Made by a program: the position numbers and the translations under genes
IMG/VR virus record: IMGVR_UViG_3300028595_000028
Span: 1 to 40,293 of that record
Direction: 5' to 3' (one strand)
DNA: 40,293 bases
Source: a virus
Part shown: in pieces, positions 3,970 through 39,278 of the stretch
How the letters are laid out: every line of letters begins with the position of its first letter
Numbering within the stretch: position 1 is the first letter of the stretch
Notes under the pieces: generated by a model
What the model was told of the DNA's origin: nothing
Databases searched by the model: none
Seen by the model: the letters and a program-made list of their open reading frames with translations, nothing else

Positions 3970-4494
3970 ATGATTGCATTGGATTACGGACACGGAGTTG
4001 ACACGCCCGGCAAAAGGAGTGGTGATTTACACGAATGGAAATTCAATAGAGATGTTGGTAAGTGGTTAGAAACTGAACTCGGTTCACGGGGTATCCCTTA
4101 CGATGTATTAGTACCCGAAGATGAGGATATAGGACTTAGAACCAGAGTCGAACGAGCGAAGGAATCCGAGGCTAATCTGCTCTTATCGATCCACGGAAAT
4201 GCCTTCAAAGATGAAAAGGTTCACGGGTTGGAGACCTTCTACTATTCCCAAAAAGGGAAACGCTTTGCCGAGATGATTCAAAGGGAGTTAGTCGCTGAGT
4301 TAGGCTGGAAAGACAGGGGCGTTAAGAAAGGGAATTTTTATATTATCAAGAAGACCCCACAAGTGGCGGCTCTTGTTGAGTTGGGTTTTTACACCAACCC
4401 TAAACAAAGAGCAGAGATGTTAAAGCCTGAAGTTCAAAAGCGAATGGCGAAAGCGTTGGCGAACGCAATACAGCAATATTTAGAGCGTGATTGA
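3970..4494 (+). CDS. N-acetylmuramoyl-L-alanine amidase (endolysin, Amidase_3)
   Basis: A zinc-dependent amidase that cleaves the bond between N-acetylmuramic acid and L-alanine in peptidoglycan. From the ATG at 3970 the protein has 174 residues and begins at the first conserved strand (MIALDYGHG). Zinc and catalytic positions are visible: His8 (DYGHG), Glu22 (HEWKFN), His75 (SIHGN) and Glu137 (ALVELGFYTN). The frame stays open upstream to an ATG at 3910 that overlaps the preceding stop, but those 20 extra residues coincide with a promoter and add nothing to the domain, so 3970 is preferred. No signal peptide is seen, which fits release through a holin. Confidence 0.92.
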   Translation: MIALDYGHGVDTPGKRSGDLHEWKFNRDVGKWLETELGSRGIPYDVLVPEDEDIGLRTRVERAKESEANLLLSIHGNAFKDEKVHGLETFYYSQKGKRFAEMIQRELVAELGWKDRGVKKGNFYIIKKTPQVAALVELGFYTNPKQRAEMLKPEVQKRMAKALANAIQQYLERD

Positions 4495-6502: not shown

Positions 6503-6522
6503 ACTTAACATAAACTTAACAT
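6501..6522 (+). repeat. Tandem 11-bp direct repeat
   Basis: Two perfect copies of AAACTTAACAT lie back to back directly at the end of the exonuclease gene (its stop is within the first copy) and just upstream of a promoter. They could be an operator for a regulator of the promoter at 6530, but no partner protein is known. Confidence 0.45.
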
Positions 6523-6529
6523 GAAATAC

Positions 6530-6560
6530 TTGTAGTGAATCAATAAAAGAACTACATTTG
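6530..6560 (+). promoter_or_regulatory. Bacteroidota-type promoter (possible small RNA)
   Basis: TTG (6530-6532), 20 nt, then a perfect TACATTTG -7 box (6553-6560). No ORF of convincing length follows before the terminator at 6611, so the predicted product is a short RNA of about 75-80 nt. Confidence 0.6.
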
Positions 6561-6565
6561 CTTAT

Positions 6566-6646
6566 TCATATTTTTAAAAGTTAAAAGCCCCTGCTCTAAC
6601 AGGGCAACCCAAGGAGGTGGTTTTCCAGAGCCACCTCCTTTTTGAA
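6566..6646 (+). ncRNA. Candidate small RNA ending at an intrinsic terminator
   Basis: The region between a promoter (6530-6560) and an intrinsic terminator (6611-6643) contains no ORF. It has an A/T-rich 5' part, a small hairpin (CCCTG, 6-nt loop, CAGGG) and then the terminator stem. This is inferred from the promoter-terminator arrangement alone. An mRNA leader with attenuation is the alternative. Confidence 0.4.
6611..6643 (+). terminator. Intrinsic terminator
   Basis: A perfect 10-bp stem, AAGGAGGTGG / CCACCTCCTT, with a 10-nt loop and a short T run. It follows the exonuclease gene and would end the lysis transcript or a small RNA. Confidence 0.85.
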
Positions 6647-6669
6647 TGGACAATAAGGCGATACGATAA

Positions 6670-6679
6670 CGGTTAACCG
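6670..6679. repeat. 10-bp perfect palindrome CGGTTAACCG
   Basis: A perfect inverted repeat between two terminators, with no coding sequence around it. It is a candidate protein-binding site near the early promoter. The remaining sequence of the 6503-6795 gap holds only the promoters, terminators and direct repeat listed separately. Confidence 0.3.
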
Positions 6680-6701
6680 CAACGCAATAGAGCCGCTTCA
6701 G

Positions 6702-6734
6702 AATCCCTCTAATTTAGGTCAGGGGATTTTTTTT
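6702..6734 (+). terminator. Second intrinsic terminator
   Basis: AATCCCT and AGGGGATT pair with one bulge around a 12-nt loop and are followed by an 8-T run. Together with the terminator at 6611 it insulates the early promoter at 6743 from upstream transcription. Confidence 0.75.
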
Positions 6735-6742
6735 ACTTTTTA

Positions 6743-6773
6743 TTTGTTTATTTCAAAAAAGGTGTTATCTTTA
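6743..6773 (+). promoter_or_regulatory. Early-region promoter
   Basis: TTTG (6743-6746), exactly 19 nt, then TATCTTTA (6766-6773), one base off the TAnnTTTG consensus. It lies just after a terminator and 22 nt before the first early ATG at 6796, and probably drives the early genes. Confidence 0.75.
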
Positions 6774-6795
6774 CATCAACATTAACACCAAAACA

Positions 6796-6993
6796 ATGAT
6801 ACCAAACGACAGAGAAGAACTTGAAAAGCTTATCCGCATATTGGATAAGCAAATCAACGCAGCTACCGAAAGGCTGGGCGGTCTATTCGGTGACATTCCC
6901 GAACTCCGCAGAAAGTGGACACACGCACGGGATATTAAAATCAGAGCCAGGAAACGAATTGCAACCAAATTAATAAGAAAAGATTATGAATAA
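6796..6993 (+). CDS. Small helical protein, first early gene
   Basis: A 65-residue, highly charged, helical protein (EELEKLIRILDKQI then RARKRIATKLI). The first half looks coiled-coil and the second half is basic. It is the first gene after the early promoter and has a short A-rich leader without a Shine-Dalgarno. Its stop lies inside the next small gene. No family is recognised. Confidence 0.6.
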   Translation: MIPNDREELEKLIRILDKQINAATERLGGLFGDIPELRRKWTHARDIKIRARKRIATKLIRKDYE

Positions 6994-7162
6994 ATGCAGA
7001 GTATGCGGAGCTGAGACCCGCCAAGTAATTACCCCATGTCTATGTAAGGACTGTGAGCAAAGGATGAAATTCAATACCCTTACCCGAAGATTAGCGGCTA
7101 ATATTGATGCTATTCAGGAAACGATCGCAAGACAAAGAACCTATTTAAATAACGTATTATGA
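6986..7162 (+). CDS. Small zinc-finger-like protein
   Basis: A 58-residue ORF overlapping the previous gene by 8 bases and the next by 4. It begins with a likely zinc site (CRVCG, then CLCKDC), followed by a helix (residues ~28-58). The tight overlaps at both ends and the cysteine pattern support it being translated. Possible nucleic-acid-binding or host-takeover protein; function unknown. Confidence 0.6.
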   Translation: MNKCRVCGAETRQVITPCLCKDCEQRMKFNTLTRRLAANIDAIQETIARQRTYLNNVL

Positions 7163-7320
7163 ACCCAGCAGAAGAAGACGAAAGGTTGTACTGCCCGACC
7201 TGTGATTCTATGGATATAGAATACTATAACGAAGAGTGCTTTTGCAAGTACTGTGAGCGCAGTGGTGAATTGAGAGAGTTCAGGAACAATTACACACCCG
7301 AATACAAAAAAGGAGAATAA
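7159..7320 (+). CDS. Small zinc-ribbon protein
   Basis: A 53-residue acidic protein with CPTC near residue 13 and CFCKYC near residue 30, forming a plausible two-knuckle zinc ribbon. It starts with an ATGA overlap and ends with a TAATG overlap to the next gene, a coupling style repeated across this genome. It follows another cysteine-rich small protein. Function unknown. Confidence 0.6.
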   Translation: MNPAEEDERLYCPTCDSMDIEYYNEECFCKYCERSGELREFRNNYTPEYKKGE

Positions 7321-7586
7321 TGAAAAAACTTGAAAACGAAATCGATCTAAAAGGATTAGGGATGCCGGTTAAAGCTACCCTTATTGAAAGAGCCGAAGAT
7401 AAGGCCATCTATGAAAGAAGCGATGGTTATTTCGAGGTATTCAAAATCAAAGTGTCAAAGGAGTCTGAGGTGTTCGGAAAAAGCTACCCAGTGCGGGAGA
7501 CGTACCCCGGAAATGAGGACTTTGGATACTCTGCCTGGTGCTACCGTTCACTTGATAAGGCAAACGCAAAATACCGCAGTATATGA
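7320..7586 (+). CDS. Hypothetical early protein
   Basis: An 88-residue soluble protein of mixed charge, likely alpha/beta (KAIYERSDGYFEVFKIKVSK). A GGAG lies shortly before the ATG. The start overlaps the preceding stop (TAATG) and the end overlaps the next ORF (ATGA). No family is recognised. Confidence 0.6.
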   Translation: MKKLENEIDLKGLGMPVKATLIERAEDKAIYERSDGYFEVFKIKVSKESEVFGKSYPVRETYPGNEDFGYSAWCYRSLDKANAKYRSI

Positions 7587-7729
7587 CAAAACACAACCAG
7601 GCCGAACGTGAGATAAGATTTTACGAGCCATTAACTCCCGTAATTTGTTGGAGCGAATGTAAATTATATCTATCTTTGTTAGATAGAGCATGGATGACAG
7701 TAGAAACCTTTTACATATCTTTGAACTAA
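7583..7729 (+). CDS. Small early ORF (48 residues)
   Basis: Short ORF that starts with an ATGA overlap and ends with a TAATG overlap to the ATG at 7729. Those two junctions are the main support. It contains a promoter-like sequence (7648-7678), so the region may instead be regulatory with the next gene starting at 7690. No family is recognised. Confidence 0.4.
   Translation: MTKHNQAEREIRFYEPLTPVICWSECKLYLSLLDRAWMTVETFYISLN
7648..7678 (+). promoter_or_regulatory. Possible promoter before the recombination genes
   Basis: TTG (7648-7650), 20 nt, then a perfect TATCTTTG (7671-7678). A second TATCTTTG lies at 7716-7723, ending 5 nt before the ATG at 7729, but without a good -33 box. Confidence 0.5.
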
Positions 7730-7989
7730 TGAATAATTTTTCACCACGGTTTACACCGACACACGAACAACTCGACTCAATCGGATTTGAATCGGATGGG
7801 GCTTCTGGTTGGTATTTAAAGATTCAGGATGAGGTCATAAGTTACTTTGAAGGGCCACGCTCTTGGAGGCTTAATGACTCCCATCTTGATCCGCAAGACT
7901 TCAATGAGATTATCCAACTCGCTTACACACTCAACCGGGGCGAGGACTACATGAACAGAGTTCGGAAATACAATAAAGAGAAAAAATGA
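7729..7989 (+). CDS. Hypothetical protein before the ERF gene
   Basis: An 86-residue soluble protein (FTPTHEQLDSIGFESDGASG, then a C-terminal basic helix, NRVRKYNKEKK). The frame extends upstream in phase to an ATG at 7690 (99 residues). The ATG at 7729 is preferred because it overlaps the previous stop (TAATG) and lies 5 nt after a -7-like box. It ends with an ATGA overlap to the ERF gene, so the two are likely co-translated. Function unknown. Confidence 0.55.
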   Translation: MNNFSPRFTPTHEQLDSIGFESDGASGWYLKIQDEVISYFEGPRSWRLNDSHLDPQDFNEIIQLAYTLNRGEDYMNRVRKYNKEKK

Positions 7990-8588
7990 AAACAAGTGAA
8001 TCAATTAAGAACATTGCCACAGCGATGCAAGTCTTTCACGAGGAGATGAACAGCATCCCTAAAACGGCAGACAACCCCTTTTTCAAGTCTAAGTACGTCC
8101 CATTGGACAAGATACTCACGGCTATTAAAAACCCTCTTAAAAAGGCTAATTTAACCTTTATGCAGTTCCCAACAGGTGAGAACGAACTTGAGACTATTAT
8201 CCTTCACGAGTCTGGCGAGTGGATGAGTTCAGCATTTAAGATGAAACCAGTTAAACAAGACCCACAGGCGTATGGTTCGGTTATCACCTATCAACGTAGA
8301 TACGCCCTGAGTGCTATCCTGGGACTGAACACCGACCCGGATGATGATGGCAACTCTGCGAGTGAGGACGGGTTTATAAGTGCCGACCAGGTGCGCCACC
8401 TTACCGTTCTGCTTTCTAAGACCGGCAAGAGCCAAGAGGAAAAGGATGCAGCGGAAGTTACCTTTCCAAGCTTGAAGCAAAGCCAGTACGATTTGGCGGT
8501 GGCTAAACTACAGATGGATGAGCGTTCACCGGGGGAATCAGAGAACTATTCACAGAAGGAAATTAACCAAATGTTGGATTTAAAATAA
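7986..8588 (+). CDS. erf: ERF-family single-strand annealing recombinase
   Basis: A 200-residue protein of the ERF family (P22 Erf-like), which anneals complementary single strands in phage recombination. Visible motifs are NPFFKSKYVPLDKI (about residues 27-40) and the core QAYGSVITYQRRYALSAILG (about 93-112), followed by an acidic NTDPDDDGN. The C-terminus (about 125-200) is variable and helical. Nearby genes for an SSB-tail protein and a NinG-like nuclease make up a recombination block. Confidence 0.9.
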   Translation: MKTSESIKNIATAMQVFHEEMNSIPKTADNPFFKSKYVPLDKILTAIKNPLKKANLTFMQFPTGENELETIILHESGEWMSSAFKMKPVKQDPQAYGSVITYQRRYALSAILGLNTDPDDDGNSASEDGFISADQVRHLTVLLSKTGKSQEEKDAAEVTFPSLKQSQYDLAVAKLQMDERSPGESENYSQKEINQMLDLK

Positions 8589-8594
8589 ATTGAA

Positions 8595-8804
8595 ATGAAA
8601 GACGTTAATTCGTTAAGAGAAAGGAGTGATCAACTACAAAGAGAGTTGGAGATGGCCGTAGATAATTACCTTGCGGATATAGGGGATGGATTTTATCCGA
8701 TTATTAACATAAATTTCATAGATGTTACCACCAAAGAATCAGATGTAAAGCAATTTGCAACCTCCGTATCTATTCTTGAGTTAAAATTTGAAATGAATAT
8801 ATAA
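8595..8804 (+). CDS. Hypothetical small protein
   Basis: A 69-residue protein with an acidic helical first half (residues 1-30) and a beta-prone second half (YPIININFIDV, then SILELKFEM). It lies 6 nt after the ERF stop with an A-rich leader. No recognised family; it may work with the recombination proteins. Confidence 0.5.
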   Translation: MKDVNSLRERSDQLQRELEMAVDNYLADIGDGFYPIININFIDVTTKESDVKQFATSVSILELKFEMNI

Positions 8805-8824
8805 CCTTTAAACAAATAGAAATT

Positions 8825-9217
8825 ATGATTAAAAGCTACGTGAGCAATCCCGTTAAAATTGCAGAAGACATCAAAGACCTGGTTTTGTCTGGCGATGTTA
8901 ATCCTATTCTGATAAAGGTCATTTATGATGCTTTCAGTGATGCAATGAAGGACGCACAGGTTAAGGACGCTATTTTATCTGAAGCCGATCTACACGGAAA
9001 AGAGTTTGAGATTTCAGGGTTCAAGTTTATGAAGATGAGTAGAACCACTTACGACTTCAAACATGATTCTGTTTGGCAGGAGTTGGAGTCTTTAAAGAAG
9101 TCAAGGGAGTCACTAATGAAACAGGCTATGGAGAATGAAATAGCAGATTCCACCACCGGGGAAATAATCCCCCCGGCAGTTAAAAAAAGTTCTGAGTTTT
9201 TAAAACGAGTAAAATAG
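8825..9217 (+). CDS. Conserved phage protein in the recombination block
   Basis: A 130-residue protein. The sequence MSRTTYDFKHDSVWQELE (about 63-80), followed by a charged helix and TGEIIPPAVKKS (about 114-125), looks familiar from conserved hypothetical proteins next to annealing/SSB genes in other phages; this is from memory and unverified. Its place between ERF and the SSB-tail protein suggests a DNA-metabolism role. Confidence 0.6.
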   Translation: MIKSYVSNPVKIAEDIKDLVLSGDVNPILIKVIYDAFSDAMKDAQVKDAILSEADLHGKEFEISGFKFMKMSRTTYDFKHDSVWQELESLKKSRESLMKQAMENEIADSTTGEIIPPAVKKSSEFLKRVK

Positions 9218-13419: not shown

Positions 13420-14064
13420 ATGAAAATACTAAACCTATACGCAGGGATTGGAGGCAATCGCAAACTATGGGAGGGGCATGAGATAACCGCCGTAGAGATG
13501 AACCCTGAAATAGCCAAAGTTTACGCTGATTATTTCCCCGATGATGAGTTAATAATTGGTGATGCTCACCAATACCTTTTGGATCATTACGATGAGTTTG
13601 ATTTTATTTGGAGTTCTCCACCGTGTCAGACTCATAGCCGGATGGTAAAAGCAACACGACACGACATCCGTAAATATCCAGATATGAAACTTTATCAAGA
13701 GATCATTTTTCTGCGGGAGTTTTTCCTTGGTAAGTGGATTGTTGAAAATGTAGTCCCGTATTATACCCCATTGATAACTCCAACTGCAAAACATGGCAGG
13801 CATTTACTTTGGTCAAACTTTTCAGTTCCGAGCGTACCGAAGATCAATTATCCTAATTTCATAAAAGCAGACTCTAAGGAGGAGATAGAAAAGTTTAAGG
13901 ATTGGCTCGGATTTAAATATGATGGGAACATTTATTTAGACGGCAATCATTCCCCCGCACAGGTGTTGAGAAATTGTGTGCATCCAGAAACTGGGCTGCA
14001 TATTCTCAACAGGGCATTGGAAATAAAAAGCCAGGAAGATATTAAACAACCAAAACTATTCTAA
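13420..14064 (+). CDS. DNA (cytosine-5) methyltransferase, compact
   Basis: A 214-residue protein with C5-methylase motifs: SAM site LNLYAGIGGNRK (motif I, 4-15), SSPPCQTHS (motif IV, catalytic Cys69), and WIVENVVPYY (motif VI, ENV 109-111). The C-terminal NHSPAQVLRNCVHPETGLHI matches the closing motifs IX/X. It is much shorter than typical Dcm enzymes (>300 residues), with a reduced target-recognition region. Likely role: methylating phage DNA against host restriction. It has its own promoter, unlike most neighbours. Confidence 0.85.
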   Translation: MKILNLYAGIGGNRKLWEGHEITAVEMNPEIAKVYADYFPDDELIIGDAHQYLLDHYDEFDFIWSSPPCQTHSRMVKATRHDIRKYPDMKLYQEIIFLREFFLGKWIVENVVPYYTPLITPTAKHGRHLLWSNFSVPSVPKINYPNFIKADSKEEIEKFKDWLGFKYDGNIYLDGNHSPAQVLRNCVHPETGLHILNRALEIKSQEDIKQPKLF

Positions 14065-18870: not shown

Positions 18871-19252
18871 AGACGCAGAGAAGTATAACGAGAAAGAGGC
18901 CCATAAGTTACTCGACAGAAGCATCGAATTAGCTAATGAGGTAGAGGATGGAGCTTACAAATTTGACTTCATAGGAGAGGTAGCAAGGGAGTTGGGAACG
19001 TACCACCACATATATAGACATCTAATCAAAAGATTCCCAGAGCTTAAGGGTAAGTTTGAGCTATTAAAGAGCACACTTGAGGCAAATTGTTATTCCAACA
19101 CTAAAAAAGGGAAGATAAGAGAAGCTACCGGAATAGTAAATCTCAAGTCAAATCACAAGTGGACAGATCGCCAGGAAATCAACCAAGAGATAAAGATGCC
19201 GTCCGTTACGATCGTTAAGCATGGAGATAAACCTAACGAAGAAGCAAAGTGA
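18851..19252 (+). CDS. terS: Terminase small subunit
   Basis: A 133-residue helical protein, the DNA-recognition subunit of the packaging motor. It has an N-terminal acidic helical part and a helix-turn-helix-like region (VARELGTYHHIYRHLIKRFP, about 38-57). The conserved ATGIVNLKSNHKWTDRQEIN (about 95-115) matches the phage TerS ending in which a (F/V)NLK-x-(N/K)xxWxD motif precedes a variable tail. It overlaps terL by 32 bases. Confidence 0.75.
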   Translation: MFEKGNKDAEKYNEKEAHKLLDRSIELANEVEDGAYKFDFIGEVARELGTYHHIYRHLIKRFPELKGKFELLKSTLEANCYSNTKKGKIREATGIVNLKSNHKWTDRQEINQEIKMPSVTIVKHGDKPNEEAK

Positions 19253-20501
19253 GGCGTGGGACTACCTGGAAGACTCATCCACTAATTATATTGTTTTTGG
19301 TGGTGCTGCAGGTGGTGCTAAGTCTTATCTCTCTGCTATTTGGCTTTGGTATTTATGCGCTACTTATGATAATGTCCATTGCTTTGTCGGGCGTGAGGAG
19401 CTTAAAAGACTTCGTGAGTCATGGGTAATGACCTGGCACAAGATGATAGCTCAATTTAAACTACCAAAAGCAGACTATAACGCGAAGGACAATTACTTTA
19501 TATTTCCTAATCAATCCAGAATAGACTTACTTGATTTAAGATATATGCCGAGTGACCCTTTGTATGAAAGATACGGATCTGTTGAATACACTTGCGGAGT
19601 AATTGAAGAGGGTGGCGAGGTAGCCTTCGAGGCATTCGACACTTTAAAGAGCAGGATAGGAAGGTATAATAACGCTGAGCACGGGATCACACCGAAGATA
19701 CTTATCACCTGTAATCCCAAAAAGAACTGGCTTTATAATCAATTCTACCTACCTTGGAAAAGGGGGAGCCTATCGGAAGATATGGCATTCATTCAAGCCC
19801 TACCGCATGACAACCCACACTTGCCACCTGATTACATAGAGGGGCTAAAGAAGATCACCGATAAGGCTCGCAAGCAAAGGCTGCTGTACGGGGAGTGGGA
19901 ATACGATGACAGTGACAATTCTCTTATCTCGTTTGATTCTATCCAAGACCTATTTACAAATGTAGTCCAAGGTGGCAAGAGGTATATAACAGCTGATATT
20001 GCGCGCTATGGGGCCGATGCTACGGTTATCGGCTACTGGAATGGGTTAAGACTAGAGGAGATAATTAAAATAGATAAGAGCGATTTAATGCACGTTGTGG
20101 GGGTTATCAATAAGCTACGTGAGGAGAAGGGTGTGGCCCTTTCTAATGTTATTGTGGATGAGCAGGGTGTCGGTGGGGGTGTTAAGGATGCTCTAAAGTG
20201 CAAGGGTTTTATAGCTAACGGGAGGCCTTTCGCCGATGGGAAGAACTTCTCGAATATCAAAAGCCAGTGCTTTTTCAAGTTAGCCGATTATATAAACGAT
20301 GGGAAGATATGGGCGGTAGATAAGTTCCGGGAATCGATCACTCAGGAGCTGGAGATGGTAAAGAGCGACACCATAACCGGAGACGGTAAGCAGAGCGTAT
20401 TAGGAAAGGACAAGGTAAGGGAGCTGCTAGGGAGGAGTCCAGACTTTGCCGATATGATGATGATGCGGATGTATTACGAGTTAAGACCAACATACTTTTA
20501 A
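19221..20501 (+). CDS. terL: Terminase large subunit
   Basis: A 426-residue packaging ATPase and nuclease. Walker A is FGGAAGGAKS (26-35) and the Walker B region is CGVIEEGGEV (125-134). Motif III is LITCNPKKNW (161-170). The C-terminal RNase H-like nuclease has TADIARYGADAT (Asp259, Asp265), VDEQGVGGG (Asp313) and SPDFADMMMMR (last acidic site, about 413-418). It docks on the portal and cuts concatemeric DNA. Confidence 0.95.
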   Translation: MEINLTKKQSEAWDYLEDSSTNYIVFGGAAGGAKSYLSAIWLWYLCATYDNVHCFVGREELKRLRESWVMTWHKMIAQFKLPKADYNAKDNYFIFPNQSRIDLLDLRYMPSDPLYERYGSVEYTCGVIEEGGEVAFEAFDTLKSRIGRYNNAEHGITPKILITCNPKKNWLYNQFYLPWKRGSLSEDMAFIQALPHDNPHLPPDYIEGLKKITDKARKQRLLYGEWEYDDSDNSLISFDSIQDLFTNVVQGGKRYITADIARYGADATVIGYWNGLRLEEIIKIDKSDLMHVVGVINKLREEKGVALSNVIVDEQGVGGGVKDALKCKGFIANGRPFADGKNFSNIKSQCFFKLADYINDGKIWAVDKFRESITQELEMVKSDTITGDGKQSVLGKDKVRELLGRSPDFADMMMMRMYYELRPTYF

Positions 20502-20502: not shown

Positions 20503-21243
20503 ATGAAAATAGGAATAGCGGTTACTACATTCAACAAGGAGGGTGGTACGAGGCATCACGTACTCGATTACACCCTAAGTAAATTAGCGAAGTACAAAGA
20601 CGACAACCAGGAGATAATCGTGATAGACGATTCTGTAGATGATGGGCCTTTGTCTACTGCCGAGGCGAATAGGAGTATATGCAATAAGTACGGGTTCGAT
20701 TACTTCCTAAACAAAGAACGGAAGGGCATCCCACATTCAAAAAAGGAGGGATTCGAGAGGCTAAGACATTGCGATTATCAGATATGGTTAGACGATGATT
20801 GCTATCCTAAGTTCTACGGGTGGGCAATTCCACTTGTTACGGCGATGGATAACGAGCAGCGTCACCTGCTTTACCTGAAGCAGTGGGCACACATTCGGTA
20901 CGTTTCTAATTGGACTAACGGGCGCGTAGACATATCGGAATACTCAGGGGCTACGGCCTGTCTGATGACGTTTACTAAGGATATTTACGAAGAGATAGAG
21001 AACTTCGCCGAGGGCTTCGGGCTGTATGGGTCGTGGCATCACACCTTGAGTACAAAGATATATAACGATGGGTTGAATCACGTTAAGTACGGAACAGTCC
21101 CAGAGATAGAAACCATAATGGGGTCTTTTGATATTACCGGAATACCTAAAGACTTCGGTGGGTGTTTCGGTCCATCTTTAACCGTAGAAGAGCGCAGGGA
21201 GTCTTTAAAGAGCTATAATGATGGAGAAAGTGTAATACCATGA
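20503..21243 (+). CDS. GT2-family glycosyltransferase (GT-A fold)
   Basis: A 246-residue protein with a GT-A nucleotide-binding start, GIAVTTFNKEGG (3-14), EIIVIDDS (37-44) and the metal-binding WLDDDCYPKF (DxD, about 95-104). A later GSWHH (about 176-180) could supply the metal-binding His seen in many GT2 enzymes. It lies directly before a UDP-galactopyranose mutase gene, so a galactofuranosyltransferase is an attractive guess. The donor is not proved by sequence. It is co-transcribed with virion genes. Confidence 0.8.
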   Translation: MKIGIAVTTFNKEGGTRHHVLDYTLSKLAKYKDDNQEIIVIDDSVDDGPLSTAEANRSICNKYGFDYFLNKERKGIPHSKKEGFERLRHCDYQIWLDDDCYPKFYGWAIPLVTAMDNEQRHLLYLKQWAHIRYVSNWTNGRVDISEYSGATACLMTFTKDIYEEIENFAEGFGLYGSWHHTLSTKIYNDGLNHVKYGTVPEIETIMGSFDITGIPKDFGGCFGPSLTVEERRESLKSYNDGESVIP

Positions 21244-21323
21244 TCGAGTTATTGGTAAGTCTGTTTTTCCTTTGGTTAATCGTTAAGTTATTTGGTGACG
21301 AGAATAGTGGACAGGATTGGTGA
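21240..21323 (+). CDS. Very small membrane peptide
   Basis: A 27-residue ORF with one hydrophobic helix (LLVSLFFLWLIVKLF) and a polar tail. It starts in an ATGA overlap with the GT2 gene and ends in a TGATG overlap with the mutase gene; these two junctions argue for real translation. Function unknown. Confidence 0.5.
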   Translation: MIELLVSLFFLWLIVKLFGDENSGQDW

Positions 21324-22321
21324 TGAATATAAGCTATGATTTAGTGATCGGGGGTTGTGGGTTGTTCGGTGCTACATTAGGACACTTAGCGACTAAGAGG
21401 GGGAAGCGGGTTCTTATTATCGAAAAGGACAAGATAGGTGGGATGTGTGCCGATAATAACAAGCACTCTCTATATGGGGTGCATATATTCCACACCTCAG
21501 ACGCGGCATTATGGAGGTGGGCTAATTCCTTTTCAAGATTTAAGCAGGTGCATTATTCCCCGCTGGTAAGATACAAAGATGAGCTATATTCGTTCCCTAT
21601 TAACCTTTTAACGCTACATCAGATATACGGAATAACATCCAAGGAACAAGCGGAAAAACTAATAAACACAAACGCAGATGGTAGGAACTTCGAAGAGAAG
21701 GCAATCAACGCAATGGGGAGGGATCTCTACGAGAAGTTCTTTTATCACTACACTAAAAAGATGTGGGGGTGTGATCCTTCTCTTATCCCTGGGAGCGTTT
21801 TATCTCGTATTCCTATTAGGCTTGATTATAATACAAGTTATTTCGGGGATAGTTACGTGGGTGTTCCTGAATTTGGGTACAGCCATTGGATACGTGCTAT
21901 CGCTTCTGGGTGTGAAATTGTTTACGGAGACTTCATACAGGAGCATGGAAGATACAATTGCACAAAGGTATTCACAGGATCAGCCGATCTTTACCATTCA
22001 CTTAAATTAGGCGAGCTGCCCTATCGTGGATTGAGGTTTGAGAAGTCGCAAGAGACGCCCTCTATGGCGATTAACTACACAGACGAGAGGGAATATACCC
22101 GCGAGATAAACTACGCGTATTTGGGTGGTGAGGGGACGTTTAGAGAGCACCCCGACGATTCGAGATTCTATCCCGTGCCTTGGGGAAAGGAACTACACCA
22201 AAAGTACTTGGATATTCCCACCGACGTGGTTTTTGCTGGTAGGTTAGGAGATTACAAGTACACGAACATGGATGAAACAATCTTAAACGCTCAGAGGTTA
22301 TGGTCGTTAATTCGCAGTTGA
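21323..22321 (+). CDS. glf: UDP-galactopyranose mutase
   Basis: A 332-residue flavoenzyme that converts UDP-galactopyranose to UDP-galactofuranose. It has the FAD motif VIGGCGLFGATLG (about 9-21), GGMCADN, YGVHIFHTSD, NAMGRDLYEKFFYHYTKKMW, RLDYNTSYFGDSYVGVPEFG, a VFTGSADLYH region and the closing FAGRLGDYKYTNMDETI with the second FAD-contact region. This is near the usual ~370-residue length. The frame extends to a TTG two codons upstream; ATG 21323 is chosen for its TGATG overlap. It probably supplies Galf to the adjacent glycosyltransferases. Confidence 0.93.
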   Translation: MNISYDLVIGGCGLFGATLGHLATKRGKRVLIIEKDKIGGMCADNNKHSLYGVHIFHTSDAALWRWANSFSRFKQVHYSPLVRYKDELYSFPINLLTLHQIYGITSKEQAEKLINTNADGRNFEEKAINAMGRDLYEKFFYHYTKKMWGCDPSLIPGSVLSRIPIRLDYNTSYFGDSYVGVPEFGYSHWIRAIASGCEIVYGDFIQEHGRYNCTKVFTGSADLYHSLKLGELPYRGLRFEKSQETPSMAINYTDEREYTREINYAYLGGEGTFREHPDDSRFYPVPWGKELHQKYLDIPTDVVFAGRLGDYKYTNMDETILNAQRLWSLIRS

Positions 22322-23007
22322 TGGAGTTCGGTAACGAACTGGCTATGGTTATCCCAACAGCTTATTCACTATATAAAGAGGGAAGACTAAAGAAGACTAT
22401 CTCGGGCAGGGGGTCTAGGTGGTTCTATTACTTCTCACCTAACCATGAAGAGGTAGATGAGCCGAGACATTGGGCTAATAGTTACGTGCACGTTAAAGAC
22501 TACGTCAAAGGGCAGTGTCCGCCATACAAGGAGGTTTACAAGAACGACGAGATGGTATTCAGCAGGCCTATTTGTGTGATAGCAAATAAGTACAATAAGG
22601 AATGGAACGGGCCGCCGGTCAATTACTACCCCGTTGATGTTTTACTTAGAATGATAGACGAACTAGACGATTATCAGGTTATCTACAATAGAAAAGTACC
22701 TAATAGGTATAGAGACGATCAGGAGGTGCTGAGCTTGGGTGACCACGAAGCGATACGCTCTGAGTTTCCAGATGTATTGTTCCTGGAGGATTTAGGCGAT
22801 GATTATAACCTTACTCAATTAAAAGTATACGCTAACTGCGACAAGTTCTACTCAGTACAGGGTGGGAACAGTATCCTTGCCTCTTGCTTTGGTGGCGAGA
22901 ATACTATCTACGCGGTAAGAGGTCAAGAGCTAAATACAGGGGTTTACTGGAGACTAGGGGGGCTTTCGGGGTGCAGGATAAAACATTCTTGTACATTTTC
23001 AGTATAG
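22321..23007 (+). CDS. Glycosyltransferase-like protein
   Basis: A 228-residue protein with a TGATG overlap to the mutase; an ATG at 22300 is an alternative start. It contains a Rossmann-like C-terminal half with DDYQVIYNRKVPNRYRDDQE, FLEDLGDDYNLTQLKVYANC and DKFYSVQGGNSILASCFGGE. The GGNS-x(5)-FGG arrangement is like the nucleotide-sugar site of GT-B/fucosyltransferase-type enzymes. Combined with its neighbours, a glycosyltransferase is likely, though the family is not identified. Confidence 0.6.
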   Translation: MEFGNELAMVIPTAYSLYKEGRLKKTISGRGSRWFYYFSPNHEEVDEPRHWANSYVHVKDYVKGQCPPYKEVYKNDEMVFSRPICVIANKYNKEWNGPPVNYYPVDVLLRMIDELDDYQVIYNRKVPNRYRDDQEVLSLGDHEAIRSEFPDVLFLEDLGDDYNLTQLKVYANCDKFYSVQGGNSILASCFGGENTIYAVRGQELNTGVYWRLGGLSGCRIKHSCTFSV

Positions 23008-23088: not shown

Positions 23089-23652
23089 ATGAATGAATTA
23101 GTATTTTCCTGTACTGATGCACTCGATCAACCGACCTTCCCGTCATGTCCTACGGACTATGGGCAGAGGCCGGTAAAGGTGTTGCTGATGAAAGAGGGTG
23201 GGACTATATCTGCCTCTTCAGGAGCTAATCCTACCGCTGCGGAGTTTCAGGCTGCAATCACATCAGGTGAGGTGATTGTAATTGAAGGAATCACTAACGG
23301 GAATGTGGTAGAGAACTCAGCTACTGAGCTTTCAGGGGATGACACTGAGACCGGAGGAACCGAGAAGTTTGATGTTTACCAGCGTCTATCTGGTAGGATT
23401 AAGCGTTTCGATGAAACCGTAAAGAGAGCATTGGAGAAGTATACGAGGTTTTCTAACCTGCGAGCGTGGTACATTACCGATAAGAATTATTGTTTCGGAG
23501 GCACTGAGGGATATTGGGCGAGCCCTGATTTCTCCTATCAGACGTTCGAGGGCGTAGGACAACCTACGTACATTAACTTTATGTTGGATTATCTGATGAG
23601 TGGGGCGGATTACGCTAACTACGACGCAGATTACGACACTCTTGCTAACTGA
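23089..23652 (+). CDS. Putative virion protein upstream of the portal
   Basis: A 187-residue protein from the ATG at 23089; the open frame extends upstream only with a poor start in the promoter. N-terminal half: beta-prone and Thr/Gly-rich (KEGGTISASSGANPTAAEFQ). C-terminal half: IKRFDETVKRALEKYTRFSN, then YWASPDFSYQTFEG. Its place directly before the portal suggests a structural protein. No family is recognised, and it could be a tail tube or decoration protein. Confidence 0.6.
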   Translation: MNELVFSCTDALDQPTFPSCPTDYGQRPVKVLLMKEGGTISASSGANPTAAEFQAAITSGEVIVIEGITNGNVVENSATELSGDDTETGGTEKFDVYQRLSGRIKRFDETVKRALEKYTRFSNLRAWYITDKNYCFGGTEGYWASPDFSYQTFEGVGQPTYINFMLDYLMSGADYANYDADYDTLAN

Positions 23653-25346
23653 TGATCTTAACCGATAGGCACATCAAGGATGTTATGGAGAAGCCCCTTA
23701 ACGGTGATAATATCGCCGTGGGGGCTAAACTCCATAAAAATTACAAGCTCCACGTAACGGGCGAGGGGTACAAGGGGCAATTGAAACAGGTAGCGGGGTA
23801 TGAGTCGGATGAGGACTTTTCGGTACGAAAGCAGCTTACATCACCCTCGACTATTCAGTTAACCAGGGCGATCATTGAAGCCCTGAGCAAGTGGACATCC
23901 ACGCAGGGGACAGTTAAGAATATAGGCTTTAAGCAGGAAAAGGACAAGGAATTTAAGAGGGTATTAGACCAGGCTTGGCGGGGGCAAAGTCTTGATAGGT
24001 TTATGAAAACCTTCTACAAGGAGGCACAGTTTATCGAGAGCGGTTCTTTTATTGTTATTACCAAACCGAAGATAGTAGAAACCTCCGAAGGAAGATACAC
24101 CGAGAAAGAGGGTATCTTAGAGAGGTACGACGGGGGTAATCTTGACCCGTATATTATATTCGTTTCTTTGGATGACGTAACAGACTACCGCGTAACAGGG
24201 GACAAGGTAGAGTATTTAATATGGAAAGTTGGTGATAACCAATACCGATTAATAGATGATTCAAGAGATGCTATAATTACCGAGGGCGGTGAGATTATTA
24301 GTGAGATTCCTAATGAGATAGAATACGTACCGGCTATTCAGGTTTCCGGGTTTACTAAAGACCTAGTAAACGATCAAGTGAAGGCCTCGCCGATTGACCA
24401 CGTTACATCTATGCTTGACAGGTATTTATCTAAGGATAGTGACTTGGTTATCCAGATGGTTAAGCACTTATATCCTAAGTTAGCCATCGTAACTAGCGAG
24501 TGTACTAAATGCGGTGGTGCTGGTCATATATTTGATGAGGACGACACGAAGATAAATTGTAAAGCGTGTGACGGTTCGGGCAAAACCATACCTATATCAC
24601 GGGGCGGGGTGATTGGGTTACCTGAATTTATAGATAGTCAATTGGCTCCTTATCCGGGCGCACCCGCTACATATGTCTCACCAGAGACGGAGACCATCAC
24701 CGTAGCGAGGGACGATCTCGTTCAGCTTGCAAAGGATATTATATTTTCCGCAACGGGAGATAAGAATATAATCACTCAGACGTTCGAGACGGCTACAGAG
24801 GCGGTTCTTAACTTTAAGGGCTTAGAGGATCGGATGGCAGATATTATCGATCAGGTAGAGAACCGAGAGGAGTTTATTGTCGAGACTATCGCTCGAATGC
24901 ACAACGATTACTCCGAGGGGTTTGATTCTGTTAGTGTGAGGTATGGACGTAGGCTAACGATGAGAGAAGAGAACGCTATCCTGCAGGAGATTCAAGATAG
25001 TAAGTCGGCAGGGATGCCCGTTAGCCATATAGAGAACTTACAGAGAGAATTGATATACTCTAAATATAGAAACAATAAAGTAGAGCTAACTAAAAACCTC
25101 TTACTAGCTGACGTCGAGCCTCTGTTGGGGTATACCGTCAGCGAGGTGCTAACCCTACGGGAGTACATCCCGGAGGAGGATATAATTTTAAAGGTGAATT
25201 TCGGCACCCTGGTTGATAAGCTAGATATAGACTTTAACGAGTTTATGCCTGATAGCAAGTGGAAAGATCGGGTTGCTGCTATTCGTGAAAAAATGTTAGA
25301 CAATGTGGATATTAGAACACAAGGGGGAGAGGGTAACGATAACTGA
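23652..25346 (+). CDS. Portal protein with zinc-knuckle insertion
   Basis: A 564-residue protein forming the vertex through which DNA enters the head. It has the size, position (after TerL, before scaffold and capsid) and helical C-terminal half (LVQLAKDIIFSATGDKNI; then VENREEFIVETIARMHNDYS) of portal proteins. Unusually, residues about 284-306 hold CTKCGGAGH and CKACDGSGK, a DnaJ-like CxxCxGxG pair that should bind zinc. It ends with an overlap of 44 bases with the next gene. Confidence 0.85.
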   Translation: MILTDRHIKDVMEKPLNGDNIAVGAKLHKNYKLHVTGEGYKGQLKQVAGYESDEDFSVRKQLTSPSTIQLTRAIIEALSKWTSTQGTVKNIGFKQEKDKEFKRVLDQAWRGQSLDRFMKTFYKEAQFIESGSFIVITKPKIVETSEGRYTEKEGILERYDGGNLDPYIIFVSLDDVTDYRVTGDKVEYLIWKVGDNQYRLIDDSRDAIITEGGEIISEIPNEIEYVPAIQVSGFTKDLVNDQVKASPIDHVTSMLDRYLSKDSDLVIQMVKHLYPKLAIVTSECTKCGGAGHIFDEDDTKINCKACDGSGKTIPISRGGVIGLPEFIDSQLAPYPGAPATYVSPETETITVARDDLVQLAKDIIFSATGDKNIITQTFETATEAVLNFKGLEDRMADIIDQVENREEFIVETIARMHNDYSEGFDSVSVRYGRRLTMREENAILQEIQDSKSAGMPVSHIENLQRELIYSKYRNNKVELTKNLLLADVEPLLGYTVSEVLTLREYIPEEDIILKVNFGTLVDKLDIDFNEFMPDSKWKDRVAAIREKMLDNVDIRTQGGEGNDN

Positions 25347-25635
25347 CGAGAAGTTAGTACCTCACGTTAGAAACCTCTACCCCGATGGAAAACTTTACAA
25401 CGATGAAGATTCAAATCGAGATGTTAGACCAGCAGATGAAGCCGACAGGCCGGAAGATGAAAGTTCAGAAAACGATGTGGCTGAAGATGCAGGAACAGTG
25501 GGGCAAGAGATTAAGGTGGATGGAATGTCTAAAGCCGACCTCGTTAGAGTCGGAATTGAAAGAGGATACGGAAAAACCCAGCTCAACCGAATGAAAAAGG
25601 ATGAGTTGATAAATTTAATAAAAAGTGGAAGATAA
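25303..25635 (+). CDS. Small SAP/Rho-N-like virion-operon protein
   Basis: A 110-residue protein: N-terminal beta part (WILEHKGERVTITDEKLV), a long acidic disordered middle (about 35-70) and a C-terminal helix-extended-helix (MSKADLVRVGIERGYGKTQL, then KKDELINLIKS) of the SAP/Rho-N/LEM-like type that often binds DNA or stabilises complexes. It overlaps portal and scaffold genes. It could be a head-assembly or connector accessory. Confidence 0.6.
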   Translation: MWILEHKGERVTITDEKLVPHVRNLYPDGKLYNDEDSNRDVRPADEADRPEDESSENDVAEDAGTVGQEIKVDGMSKADLVRVGIERGYGKTQLNRMKKDELINLIKSGR

Positions 25636-26542
25636 AGACGTAACTCAGTTAAGTGAGTTGTTAGGCCTCGATAAAGAGGTTGTTGAGGGTTCTGTCAAGG
25701 ATGGGACACTCGGTGAAAGGATTCAGGATTGGAAGAGCAGTCGAAAGATTTACGCGAGTGATGACTTCGAAAAGTTCACGTCTAATCTAAAGACATCTAC
25801 AAAGGACGAGTACTTTAACGAGTTGGTTGATTTAGCTAAGCGTGGTGAAATGCCCACCGAGCTATACAAGCCAATCAAAGGTTCAGCCCTTGAGATGTTT
25901 GAAAAGGATTTAAGTAAAAAGTACAATGTAGCTGATTACTCCAATGCTACTGACTTGGTGGAGAAGATTGTAAAATCTAAGTCGAACGCAACAGACAACC
26001 AACAGGTTCAGGAATTGGAACAGAAGATAGTCGAACTGCAATCAGCTAACAAAGACCTGCTAAGAGCAAAAGAGGAAGCGGATAAGACTTGGGAAACTAA
26101 GTATAAATCTGACAATATCTCTCGTGAGCTTAGCCAGGCGATCAGTGGTCTGCCATTAGACTTCAGTGACAAGTCTGATGACGAGGTTGACAAGGTGCGC
26201 AACAGTACGCACACGATTCTCAGGTCGGTGTTTGATACTACATACGAAACCGACATAGTGGATGGTAAGGTGATCGTTAAGGACAAGGACGGGAACGTCT
26301 TAAAGGACAAAGCGACGCTTGACCCTCTTGGTCTCGACGAGGTACTTACCTCACTGGCTGGAGAGTTAAATATGAAATTAACAAGTCCTGAAACCGGGGG
26401 ACAGGGTGGAAAATCCTCCAAAGGTAAAAACGGTATTAATTCCGAAGAGGACTTTTATGCGGAGTGTGAGCGGTTGGGTGTCCAACCCACATCGGCTGAG
26501 GGTCTATCCCTTTGGAAGCAATACAAGCAAAACAGTAAATAA
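25625..26542 (+). CDS. Scaffolding protein
   Basis: A 305-residue, acidic, helical protein with a GTG start overlapping the preceding stop by 11 bases. A coiled coil lies at about 125-160 (VQELEQKIVELQSANKDLLR). The C-terminal quarter contains a Gly/Ser/Lys linker and EEDFYAECERLGVQPTSAEG, a typical capsid-binding end. It lies directly before the major capsid gene, as expected for an internal scaffold removed during maturation. No protease domain is seen. Confidence 0.8.
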   Translation: MEDKDVTQLSELLGLDKEVVEGSVKDGTLGERIQDWKSSRKIYASDDFEKFTSNLKTSTKDEYFNELVDLAKRGEMPTELYKPIKGSALEMFEKDLSKKYNVADYSNATDLVEKIVKSKSNATDNQQVQELEQKIVELQSANKDLLRAKEEADKTWETKYKSDNISRELSQAISGLPLDFSDKSDDEVDKVRNSTHTILRSVFDTTYETDIVDGKVIVKDKDGNVLKDKATLDPLGLDEVLTSLAGELNMKLTSPETGGQGGKSSKGKNGINSEEDFYAECERLGVQPTSAEGLSLWKQYKQNSK

Positions 26543-26544: not shown

Positions 26545-27576
26545 ATGGCTAATTATGCTTCAACGGTTTTGCTCGATGCTTTGAGCGAAATCACCGACAC
26601 GGCTCAGAAGGACTTGCGCGCGCCTCAGTATGGTGCTACTCGTATGTTCAATGACCACAAAAGAGAGGTTATTCTTAACTTCGACCAATTTAAGAACATT
26701 GAAATTAAGTCAGACCTGCAGACTGCAAAGGTTGACTATATCAAGCGTTCTTCACGTTCTACGTCCAGTTCACGTAGTGCTGCTCCTAGCGGTGCGATGG
26801 GTGACTCAGGACGGCAGACGCTTTCTTTCGTAACCTATGCAGATTCCTTCACCATCAGTGATGACAACGTAAGGAACAACCGCTACGAGGCCGCGAAGAT
26901 TCTTGCTGCACAGATTCGCAACGCTAGACTGAATATAGGTGCTGACATCGAGACTGCGATGGTAGCTGCTCTAGAGGCAGGGCGTTCAACTACTCAGGGT
27001 GTTCGTAGCCTGTCCACTTGGGACGGTGTTAATAACATCATGGTAACATCGAACGCTAACGATGCGAACTACTACAACTACATGGAGACTGATCTTAAAG
27101 CTCTGAACTACTTCGGTAGGCTTCAGGAGGTGCACAGCTACAACCTACACGCTCTTGCTATGGAGCAAACGGCGCAAGGTTCAGCTAACAGCACAAACCT
27201 TCAGTTCCAGTACGGAGATATTGACTTCTACAACTCAAGCTCCATCACTAATTCAACTGACCACTTCGGAACATCTTATGTATCTGAGATTGGTGCACTT
27301 GGTTTGGTTGATTGGATTCCCGGTAAGAACCGCACAGGGCTTATGGGACATGCCGACTTTGACTTTATGTCCGTTCCTGATCCCTTCGGAGTATTCGATC
27401 AGTTCGCGGTGGCGGTTTATAAGAAGGTTCAAGATTCTACTTCTGGAGATGCAGACATCGGGGGTACTACCCAGGATGCTGTTTGGATTTATGAGTGGTC
27501 TATTGATGTAGCTCCATTTATTACTCCTATTACGAGCGACAAGGCCGTATATAAGTACGCCCTTTCTAAATCTTAA
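26545..27576 (+). CDS. Major capsid protein
   Basis: A 343-residue protein, in position between scaffold and an intrinsic terminator. Likely HK97-type by gene order, with an N-terminal region (VLLDALSEITDTAQKDLRAP), a long basic/Ser-rich stretch (YIKRSSRSTSSSRSAAPSGA) and an E-loop-like segment. The C-terminal domain has IPGKNRTGLMGHADFDFMSV and DVAPFITPITSDKAVYKYA. No homologue is identified by eye, and the Ser-rich segment might carry modifications. Confidence 0.8.
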   Translation: MANYASTVLLDALSEITDTAQKDLRAPQYGATRMFNDHKREVILNFDQFKNIEIKSDLQTAKVDYIKRSSRSTSSSRSAAPSGAMGDSGRQTLSFVTYADSFTISDDNVRNNRYEAAKILAAQIRNARLNIGADIETAMVAALEAGRSTTQGVRSLSTWDGVNNIMVTSNANDANYYNYMETDLKALNYFGRLQEVHSYNLHALAMEQTAQGSANSTNLQFQYGDIDFYNSSSITNSTDHFGTSYVSEIGALGLVDWIPGKNRTGLMGHADFDFMSVPDPFGVFDQFAVAVYKKVQDSTSGDADIGGTTQDAVWIYEWSIDVAPFITPITSDKAVYKYALSKS

Positions 27577-27583: not shown

Positions 27584-27607
27584 GGGGAGGTTCGCCTCCC
27601 CTTTTTT
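27584..27607 (+). terminator. Terminator after the capsid gene
   Basis: GGGGAGG, TTCG loop, CCTCCCC, then six T residues: a textbook intrinsic terminator. It likely raises capsid transcript relative to downstream genes by partial termination. Confidence 0.95.
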
Positions 27608-27609: not shown

Positions 27610-28638
27610 ATGAAGCTCTTTGTAGTTATGCCGCACAAGTTTGCGGGGTGTGGATATTACAGGCAATATCAGCCAAATGTAAGATTATCCGAGCAGGGGA
27701 TTAACGTCACAATCGGTGCAGGTTTCACGAAGGTCGACAACAATGAAATGACCGATGACGAATTAAGGGAATATGACCTATTTCTTTACCACAAAGGATA
27801 CATTAACTTCCAAGAGTTTCATAGATTAAACAACTTAGGTATTCCGTGGGTGTTGGATTTTGATGATCACTGGCGGCTGGATACCGAACACGTTCTTTAT
27901 AAAAAGTGGAAAGAGAAGGGAACGACCGAGAGTATGATCGAGGCGGCTCGATTAGCTCCTTACTTAAGTGCCTCTACGCCTCTACTTGCCGAGGAGTTAA
28001 GTAAGTTAAATAAAAACGTCTCGGTTTTCGAAAACGCTATGAACCCTCAAGACGTAAGAGGAGAGAGGATGCCGGAGGAGTTCACGTTTGGCTATCTAGG
28101 TGGGCACTGTCACGTTAAAGACGTTGAGTCAATGAGGGGTATCACTAGTATGGTAAGCGACGTTAAAGTGCGTCTATTTGGCTACGACAACGGGCCTGTA
28201 TACAACGGTTACGCAGACGTTCTCTCTAACGGGGGTAAGTTAAAGAAGTTCTCCTGCGTACCTGGGGTAAATATCTGGCAGTATCACGAACTATATAATT
28301 ATCTAGACGTTTCTATAGTTCCTTTAGTGGACAATTCGTTCAACAGGTACAAGAGCGAACTGAAGCTAATCGAGGCGGGGTTCTTTAAAAAAGCAGTAAT
28401 AGCCTCTGATGTTTGGCCCTATAAGTACGTTAAAAATGGATGGCTGAGGGTTAAAAAGAGACAGGACTGGGTTAAGCATATTAAGTACCTAAAGAACAAC
28501 CCAGAGGCAGCTAAAGACTTAGGGGAGGAATTATACGAAGAGGTAAAAGACAAGTATCATCTAGATACCGTAAATAAGAAAAGATTAAAACTATATCAAG
28601 ATGTATCAGCAAAGTTCAATAATATCAGCGGCGTGTGA
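27610..28638 (+). CDS. GT-B glycosyltransferase (group 1-like) in the capsid operon
   Basis: A 342-residue protein with a GT-B fold pattern: an N-terminal Rossmann part (KLFVVMPHKFAGCGYYRQYQ), a middle (VLDFDDHWRLDTEHVLYKKW), a second Rossmann half (FTFGYLGGHCHVKDVESMRG) and the donor-binding NRYKSELKLIEAGFFKKAVI resembling the E-x7-E region of GT4 enzymes. Its ATG is 2 nt after the terminator U run. Its 3' end overlaps the next virion gene by 38 bases. It probably glycosylates a virion protein or the host surface. Confidence 0.85.
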   Translation: MKLFVVMPHKFAGCGYYRQYQPNVRLSEQGINVTIGAGFTKVDNNEMTDDELREYDLFLYHKGYINFQEFHRLNNLGIPWVLDFDDHWRLDTEHVLYKKWKEKGTTESMIEAARLAPYLSASTPLLAEELSKLNKNVSVFENAMNPQDVRGERMPEEFTFGYLGGHCHVKDVESMRGITSMVSDVKVRLFGYDNGPVYNGYADVLSNGGKLKKFSCVPGVNIWQYHELYNYLDVSIVPLVDNSFNRYKSELKLIEAGFFKKAVIASDVWPYKYVKNGWLRVKKRQDWVKHIKYLKNNPEAAKDLGEELYEEVKDKYHLDTVNKKRLKLYQDVSAKFNNISGV

Positions 28639-29710
28639 TCTCGTAGGGTGGAACACATCCACTAACGCAGGGTACACTGGATTAACGGGGTATCTTAAAG
28701 CGGCTGAGTCGGGGTATTACATCGATGACCTGCCCGGGCTATCTCTGGAGGTTGCTGACGTAGCACGAAACGAACGCTCTCTTGACGATTACCTAAAGGC
28801 GGTTAATAGAGCGGCGAGTATTCAAGTGGTGGATTCGTTCGTAAAGAAGATTAAAAAAGACTTAAATTCTAAGGAACTCTTAGGTCACTTAACGATATTT
28901 CAGAACAAAGTAGACCGAGACACCACGATAACAAGAAACAACAGGTTCGTTGGGTATGTTATAACCCCAAGGGAGAGCAAGTCAATAAGAACCACCATAT
29001 CACAGATAGGGTTCTATTCTTCCACAAATCAGACGTTTACGGTTTATCTCTTCGACTCTTCAAGGGAGACCGCTATTCAGAGCAAGCAAGTTACCGTAGT
29101 GGGTAATCAATTGACGTGGACTGACCTGGGTTGGGACGTTGAGTTTGATGAGCTATCAAGAGGAGCAGGAGAGCGGTATCTTTTAGGGTACTTTGAATCT
29201 GAGTTAGCAGGTGACCTTTACGATACTGATTGGACATACGGGGGTCATCAAAGCCAGAAGGTGTTCAGTAAGTATTGTGGAATAGCTCCGGTAAGGTTTC
29301 AAAACGCTACGCTGGACGGAACCGACTCCCCGGATTATTACTACTTAGATGGTGCTGTTAGCTGCAGGATGAGCGGCTTTAACTTCCGAGTGAGATCAAG
29401 GTGTGATATAACCGATGTCTTAGTAGACGAGATCGATATGTTCGCAGAGGCTATCCAGCACCACGTAGCGGTGAGGATACTAAAGGACGCGTTAAGCAAT
29501 CCGAATATAGATAATATAAAAGGAAGCGGTCAGAACCGTCAAGAGTGGAGAGAGCTAATAGCGGAGTATAACGGCAAGCTGCATGGGGGCATTACCGAGG
29601 CAGGTCAGTATGTGGCGGGGATAATCGACAAACTTAGTTTGGATTTAAGCTCAATAGATGCTGTGTGTTTAAAGGCAGAACAGAATAGATTAACAGGTGT
29701 GAAATGGTAA
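28601..29710 (+). CDS. Putative neck/tail virion protein
   Basis: A 369-residue protein. The N-terminal and C-terminal regions (1-90, 270-369) are helical, and the middle (about 105-265) is a beta-sandwich-like module (GYVITPRESKSIRTTISQIG, FTVYLFDSSRETAIQSKQVT). It may be a head-tail connector or tail tube with an inserted beta domain; no family is recognised. No obvious major tail protein is found elsewhere, so it remains a candidate. Confidence 0.55.
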   Translation: MYQQSSIISAACDLVGWNTSTNAGYTGLTGYLKAAESGYYIDDLPGLSLEVADVARNERSLDDYLKAVNRAASIQVVDSFVKKIKKDLNSKELLGHLTIFQNKVDRDTTITRNNRFVGYVITPRESKSIRTTISQIGFYSSTNQTFTVYLFDSSRETAIQSKQVTVVGNQLTWTDLGWDVEFDELSRGAGERYLLGYFESELAGDLYDTDWTYGGHQSQKVFSKYCGIAPVRFQNATLDGTDSPDYYYLDGAVSCRMSGFNFRVRSRCDITDVLVDEIDMFAEAIQHHVAVRILKDALSNPNIDNIKGSGQNRQEWRELIAEYNGKLHGGITEAGQYVAGIIDKLSLDLSSIDAVCLKAEQNRLTGVKW

Positions 29711-39226: not shown

Positions 39227-39278
39227 CTAAATACGCATTTAACAAATGAACAACAATGAACTAAAAGAACTATAAGAC

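Follow-up and report, generated by a model that had tools for sequence, protein, structure and literature searches.

Gene order at the locus

The window analysed here is an entire IMG/VR contig of 40293 bases. From 18851 onwards the genes run in the order terS-like ORF, terL, a GT2 glycosyltransferase, a 27-aa ORF, a UDP-galactopyranose mutase (UGM), a third enzyme, a minor head protein, portal, a small ORF, a scaffold-like protein, the major capsid protein (MCP), a GT-B glycosyltransferase, an adaptor-like protein and tail genes (Table 1). The stretch from GT2 to the third enzyme forms a cassette with terL on one side and the minor head protein on the other, and the GT-B enzyme lies separately between MCP and adaptor.

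terL and GT2 are separated by 1 bp without overlap, and the following junctions are ATGA (GT2 stop/27-aa ORF start), TGATG (27-aa ORF/UGM) and TGATG (UGM/third gene). A sequence-only reading of this DNA had described such overlaps between the three enzymes; the couplings exist, but they run through the 27-aa ORF, which that reading had not listed. It had also counted four sugar enzymes among the structural genes, including the GT-B at 27610, and this count agrees with the present assignments (the GT-B by phrog_7162), the third enzyme, and so the total, being probable. Its proposal of co-expression with the capsid gene is only partly right for the GT-B enzyme, as a strong terminator-like hairpin separates MCP from GT-B and may lower GT-B expression.

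Table 1 Features of the head operon and its sugar genes in the window
Feature	Coordinates	Strand	Basis
terL, terminase large subunit	19221..20501	+	PF03237 E=2e-5; phrog_2 E=1e-26
GT2 (GT-A) glycosyltransferase, 246 aa	20503..21243	+	PF00535 E=1.7e-10; phrog_2456 E=7e-24
Putative 27-aa ORF, hydrophobic, single-TM-like, MIELLVSLFFLWLIVKLFGDENSGQDW	21240..21323	+	Sequence; KD19 max 2.16
UGM (UDP-Galp to UDP-Galf), 332 aa, start ATG 21323	21323..22321	+	PF03275 E=3e-32; PDB 1i8t E=1.5e-54
Third enzyme, putative GT-B glycosyltransferase, 228 aa, start ATG 22321	22321..23007	+	Fold and gene neighbourhood
Minor head protein	23089..23652	+	34% to L057 5425-6009; kept just 5' of portal in relatives
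Portal	23652..25346	+	phrog_7376 E=1e-40; homologues in Bacteroides/Flavobacterium/Polaribacter phages
Scaffold-like head protein	25625..26542	+	phrog_7970 E=4e-10; 27% to same-slot L057 protein
MCP	26545..27576	+	phrog_7231 E=3e-37; 25% to annotated Pan5 MCP; 36% to L057 MCP
Intrinsic-terminator-like hairpin, MCP/GT-B gap	27584..27601	+	7 pairs, 6 G-C, then TTTTTT
GT-B glycosyltransferase, 342 aa, MCP/adaptor slot	27610..28638	+	phrog_7162 E=7e-42; 36% homologue, same slot, L057
Head-tail adaptor-like protein	28601..29710	+	phrog_8189; overlaps GT-B end; slot of Pan5 gene annotated 'adaptor'

The portal and the adaptor-like protein match phages of Bacteroides, Flavobacterium, Polaribacter and Croceibacter, the MCP matches Pan5 and phage MD05, and the minor head protein occupies the slot of a gene annotated 'major head/minor capsid protein' in UZM3, tant8-1 and FPSV-S2. 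The head gene order is identical in Pan5 and the Bacteroidota-phage relatives examined. We infer that the host of the window phage belongs to the Bacteroidota.

The contig end partly repeats its beginning: 39278-40021 is a copy of 1-744 (95.3%) and 40024-40293 a copy of 3710-3979 (90%). This imperfect overlap suggests that the genome is near complete, probably circular or circularly permuted, at ~39.3 kb. The overlap joins base 744 to 3710; the copy at the end corresponds to a strain variant without the 745-3709 block, where an fn3-domain protein and GDSL-lipase-like proteins are encoded.

Sugar genes and structural genes agree in GC and GC3, and a recent import, judged by composition, is therefore unsupported. 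The Bacteroidota promoter motif had no match near the cassette, both matches in the window being elsewhere, and sigma-70-type matches in the cassette region were at chance level only. One exact match to the Bacteroidota-type promoter pattern (TTTG-N-TANNTTTG; chance expectation 0.55 per window) lies at 3935-3970, right before ATG 3970, and the same 31 bases occur again at 40249 in the end overlap. The position of the match suggests that the amidase endolysin starts at 3970 and not at 3910. Elsewhere, a C5-cytosine methyltransferase-like ORF (13420-14064) matches its family only over the N-terminal ~80-110 residues, and is either truncated or diverged in the rest.

Sequence and fold of the sugar enzymes

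The assignment of the first enzyme to GT2, made earlier from the letters alone, was borne out by PF00535 (41.6 bits versus a cut-off of 23.3), by phrog_2456 and by a DXD-type motif (DDD in WLDDDCYP, near residue 97). Its closest phage relatives are mycobacteriophage glycosyltransferases, among them PopTart gp91 (29% over 235 aa). Identity to the GT2 of the related contig L057 is 27%, and the L057 enzyme is 36% identical to PopTart gp91. The match to a GtrB-like PHROG was weak (E=0.036). An AlphaFold model of GT2, built without an alignment, reached a pLDDT of 32 and was discarded.

The UGM had likewise been recognised by family motifs, and the identification holds. PF03275 (GLF) is covered over profile positions 1-203, the FAD-binding GxGxxG is present, and NAD_binding_8 and phrog_9677 (E=6e-71) are matched as well. 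The homology to PDB 1i8t, which we take to be E. coli GLF, is full-length; the window enzyme differs in its length (332 versus 367 aa) and in being encoded in a head operon. The 1i8t alignment shows that both essential arginines, R162 and R260 (E. coli R170 and R278), are kept together with W148, Y173, Y283 and Y313 (W156, Y181, Y311 and Y346), and that D348 in E. coli numbering is replaced by Asn, as it is in two other phage UGMs, those from Lactobacillus phage ATCCB and from Rhodothermus phage RM378. According to work cited in PMC4192007, Ala in place of the arginine equivalent to TcUGM Arg327 abolishes the activity of Klebsiella UGM; we read this arginine as the equivalent of R260. Because the homology is strong and the active-site residues are kept, the protein is likely to be an active mutase.

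UGM relatives were present in 87 phage records, and a single-protein scan for close viral relatives found none. The other phage UGMs aligned (Aeromonas and Rhizobium T4-like phages, ATCCB, DSL-LC01, RM378) are 26-35% identical and differ in having early, DNA-metabolism or lysis neighbours in the six phages that were checked and whose annotation is informative; the RM378 neighbours carry no annotation. phrog_9677, labelled as of unknown function, spans nearly the whole window UGM and is evidently a UDP-galactopyranose mutase family. At 6031-9086 of ATCCB (L009), thymidylate synthase, an annotated beta-glucosyltransferase and the UGM are adjacent, making this locus a candidate for galactofuranose on DNA bases.

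The third enzyme had been called glycosyltransferase-like, a label that was a guess; there is no Pfam or PHROG family match, and the label is now supported by fold and neighbourhood. The AlphaFold (AF2) model from a six-sequence alignment had a pTM of 0.79 and a pLDDT of 76. Its top Foldseek matches in the PDB were GT9 heptosyltransferases (WaaC, WaaF) and the autotransporter heptosyltransferase TibC, with probabilities mostly of 0.9-1.0, E values of 1e-3 at best and query TM-scores of 0.4-0.5. The third enzyme is shorter than these nearest folds; as the resemblance is one of GT-B fold without a Pfam sequence match, we do not class it as GT9. Among viral models, a Terrestrivirus protein (BFVD A0A3G4ZQV3) was matched with E=6e-16 and 35% identity.

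Viral and bacterial relatives of the third enzyme were reached via a two-sequence alignment with its homologue in viral contig L002, for which a PDB sequence search gave no match. Members of the family occur in phages, in Chitinophagaceae, in a Roseomonas MAG and in a giant virus. In viral contigs L002 and L005 the homologue lies directly 3' of a UGM within sugar clusters of ~15 genes, and in L006 a GT2 precedes it, with GT-B enzymes and an epimerase close by. Its occurrence is sporadic in Cnuella's family, the Chitinophagaceae (7/150 genomes), where the neighbours at six loci include polysaccharide flippases, GT11, GT2 and GT-B enzymes. The protein is best read as a glycosyltransferase, and its pairing with a UGM in the window and in L002 and L005 makes it a candidate Galf transferase. 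It points to a glycosyltransferase family absent from the Pfam and PHROG libraries used. Chaperonin-like genes were also seen in these contigs: a GroES-like gene stands among the sugar genes of the L002 (458-13225) and L005 (508-13222) clusters, these two contigs being related to each other, and a GroEL-like gene a few kb 5' of the L006 glycosyltransferases.

Relatives of the separate GT-B enzyme occur in Streptomyces phage KimJongPhill, with a UDP-glucose dehydrogenase and a methyltransferase directly 5' of terS, and in Klebsiella phage 05F01, near DNA polymerase and DNA methyltransferase genes.

Sugar cassettes in related phages

We compared the locus with 95 relatives, 88 from IMG/VR (two MCP-alignment scans and one portal-alignment scan, the latter giving one locus) and seven named phages, nearly all reached via the capsid protein. 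A single-protein scan for close viral MCP relatives found none, and alignment-based scans were needed. Sugar genes near the capsid gene were detected in two of the ~95 relatives, L057 and L023, which are also the two with GT2 Pfam matches; since the loci span up to ~9 kb on each side of MCP and a large share of the contigs is fragmentary, absence gives a lower bound.

The closest relative is L057 (terL 42%, MCP 36%, portal 33%). Its MCP/adaptor slot carries seven genes. They encode a GT2, a further two GT-like proteins, an MptE-like protein, a NodB-type deacetylase, a 303-aa protein (unmatched in Pfam and GNAT-like only on inspection by eye) and a GT-B, which is the last gene before the adaptor as in the window. 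The scaffold/MCP slot of L023 carries five, for a GT2, a hexapeptide transferase, a methyltransferase, a weak GT-B match and a second GT2-like protein. Counting the window phage, three related phages thus carry three distinct sugar sets, spread over three junctions of the same operon.

The sequence-only reading had proposed a search for the same set in related phages. In a protein-level search of all relative loci, the window GT2 and GT-B had homologues in L057 only, but within the loci around MCP a recognised UGM and a third-enzyme homologue were each found in 0 of ~95. Galactofuranose would hence be particular to the window phage and not a group-wide trait, judging from the recognised UGMs.

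The spacing between terL and portal is less than ~150 bp in many relatives. The head-operon insertions of L019, L025, L030-L032, L034-L037, L040, L041, L050 and L054 hold an HNH-like protein, secreted-looking proteins and ORFs of no assigned function, with neither a GT2 nor a phrog_7162 enzyme among them. Two of the secreted-looking proteins are in the MCP/adaptor slot of L030/L031 (9893-11726), and this junction is therefore a general insertion site. The head module of Pan5, a Pseudanabaena phage, and of Bacteroides and Flavobacterium siphoviruses shares the order terL-portal-x-scaffold-MCP-adaptor with the window, whereas no sugar genes are present in the regions read; in Pan5 a cement gene occupies the slot of the window GT-B (position only, no homology).

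Possible targets of the glycan

We lean, by a little, towards the reading that a late, swappable glycosylation cassette decorates a virion protein, in this phage with galactofuranose. The main evidence is that different cassettes recur inside the head operon of relatives, which argues that the sugars have to do with the particle under assembly. The cassette would be expressed late, and UGM, with its strong homology and conserved active site, would turn host UDP-galactopyranose into UDP-galactofuranose. The third enzyme, with its GT9-like GT-B fold, would most likely transfer the Galf, and GT2 and the separate GT-B enzyme may start or extend the glycan. The products would form in the cytoplasm, where the head proteins are also made, and be attached to at least one of MCP, minor head protein and tail proteins, with MCP as a possible acceptor. 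Exchange of cassette genes would vary the glycan among related phages, as in bacterial surface-antigen loci, and the presumed benefit is an altered recognition, stability or surface adsorption of the particle.

Several observations speak against decoration of the virion. The cassettes are rare (three phages counting the window phage), UGM and the third enzyme are confined to the window phage among these relatives, D348 of the UGM is Asn, and a terminator precedes GT-B. Moreover, the UGM genes of other phages are found among early, DNA-metabolism or lysis genes, a setting in which DNA may be what receives the sugars.

The earlier reading had left open whether the virion is decorated or the host surface changed late in infection. 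In the second case the enzymes would alter lipid-linked O-antigen or capsule intermediates, so that progeny do not stick to debris or superinfecting phages are excluded. Galf is mostly a cell-surface sugar, third-enzyme homologues stand in bacterial polysaccharide loci adjoining flippases and GT11 and GT2 genes, and the 27-aa hydrophobic ORF lies within the cassette. However, no flippase, polymerase or priming enzyme was found among the enzymes of the three cassettes (window, L057, L023), no TM-like segment occurs in any of them (KD19 at most 1.6; 2.16 for the 27-aa peptide), and GtrA-type proteins are likewise missing from the window cassette. Gtr-type O-antigen conversion (GtrA flippase, GtrB, GtrC) does not fit a window cassette with no multi-TM protein. 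The late position would also leave little time for remodelling the envelope, and the relatives hold quite different cassettes within the head operon. We consider a host-surface role unlikely. Decoration of the virion is better supported, because cassettes recur in the head operons of two relatives, the enzymes are soluble and come without flippase, polymerase or priming enzyme, and cluster F mycobacteriophages share the GT2 family; the galactofuranose itself is the part that does not extend to the group.

A role in DNA hypermodification, in which sugars put on modified bases of the phage genome block restriction, seems to us quite improbable. Phage-encoded glycosyltransferases frequently act on DNA, the ATCCB UGM adjoins the thymidylate synthase and beta-glucosyltransferase genes mentioned above, the UGM of Aeromonas and Erwinia T4-like phages is beside a middle-transcription activator, and the 05F01 relative of GT-B is near DNA genes. 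Against this, a thymidylate-synthase-type gene (PF00303) is absent from the window and from the loci of the cassette-bearing relatives, of C5-methyltransferases only the truncated-looking one is seen, and the sugar genes lie in head operons, not among replication genes. Passive cargo (a moron), acquired by chance and kept for a non-virion use or decaying, is very unlikely: among relatives, only the window phage was found to have UGM and the third gene, and their phage-like composition gives no age, but the reading frames are intact, catalytic residues are kept, translational coupling is tight, and a homologous GT-B (~36% identity) is retained in the same slot of L057.

Glycosylated virions have been reported in few phages, mostly mycobacteriophages, and the glycans there alter antibody recognition. 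PMC12619734, PMC12363180 and PMC11256854 credit Freeman et al. 2023 with capsid or tail tube glycosylation in mycobacteriophages Che8, Corndog, Myrna and Rita; capsid glycosylation reportedly requires gp110 in Che8 (PMC12363180), and the capsids of Che8 and Rita are reported to bear glycans (PMC11256854). The window likewise carries a set of phage-encoded glycosyltransferases, and its GT2 belongs to the PHROG families (2456/1579) of PopTart gp91, which lies near a Che8 gp110 homologue (phrog_854) in a cluster F phage. The two differ in that the Che8 glycosylation genes are at the right end of the genome and the window cassette is in the head operon, that no UGM was among the mycobacteriophage gene neighbours seen, that lineage and hosts are different, and that an acceptor is reported for the mycobacteriophages, the window system having candidate acceptors. 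We looked for direct homology between the window GT2 and Che8 gp108-110, and between GT-B and gp108, and detected none. Because BLASTP gave no significant match between Che8 gp108-110 and the window GT2, the link is one of family and cassette, not of orthology. On the best reading, mycobacteriophage virion glycosylation is the closest proven system and the window a new variant of it, the novel elements being the Galf pathway, the location in the head operon combined with an exchange of cassettes within this lineage, and the unclassified glycosyltransferase family. We found no report of Galf-decorated virions in the open-access literature, outside which most subscription journals lie.

A wider proposal, which we make tentatively and which could well prove wrong, is that this Bacteroidota siphovirus lineage carries exchangeable 'virion antigen' cassettes in its head operon, and that the window phage coats its capsid with a Galf glycan, using a mutase of its own and a Galf transferase not classified before, as a viral parallel of bacterial O-antigen loci. 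Sugar cassettes that vary from one related phage to another and yet keep to the head operon would suggest that the particle surface itself is under selection, and they would give a testable system in Bacteroidota phages. Galactofuranose is a five-ring sugar that mammals do not make, and a phage-made galactofuranose coat, if true, would bear on how the particles are seen in the body.
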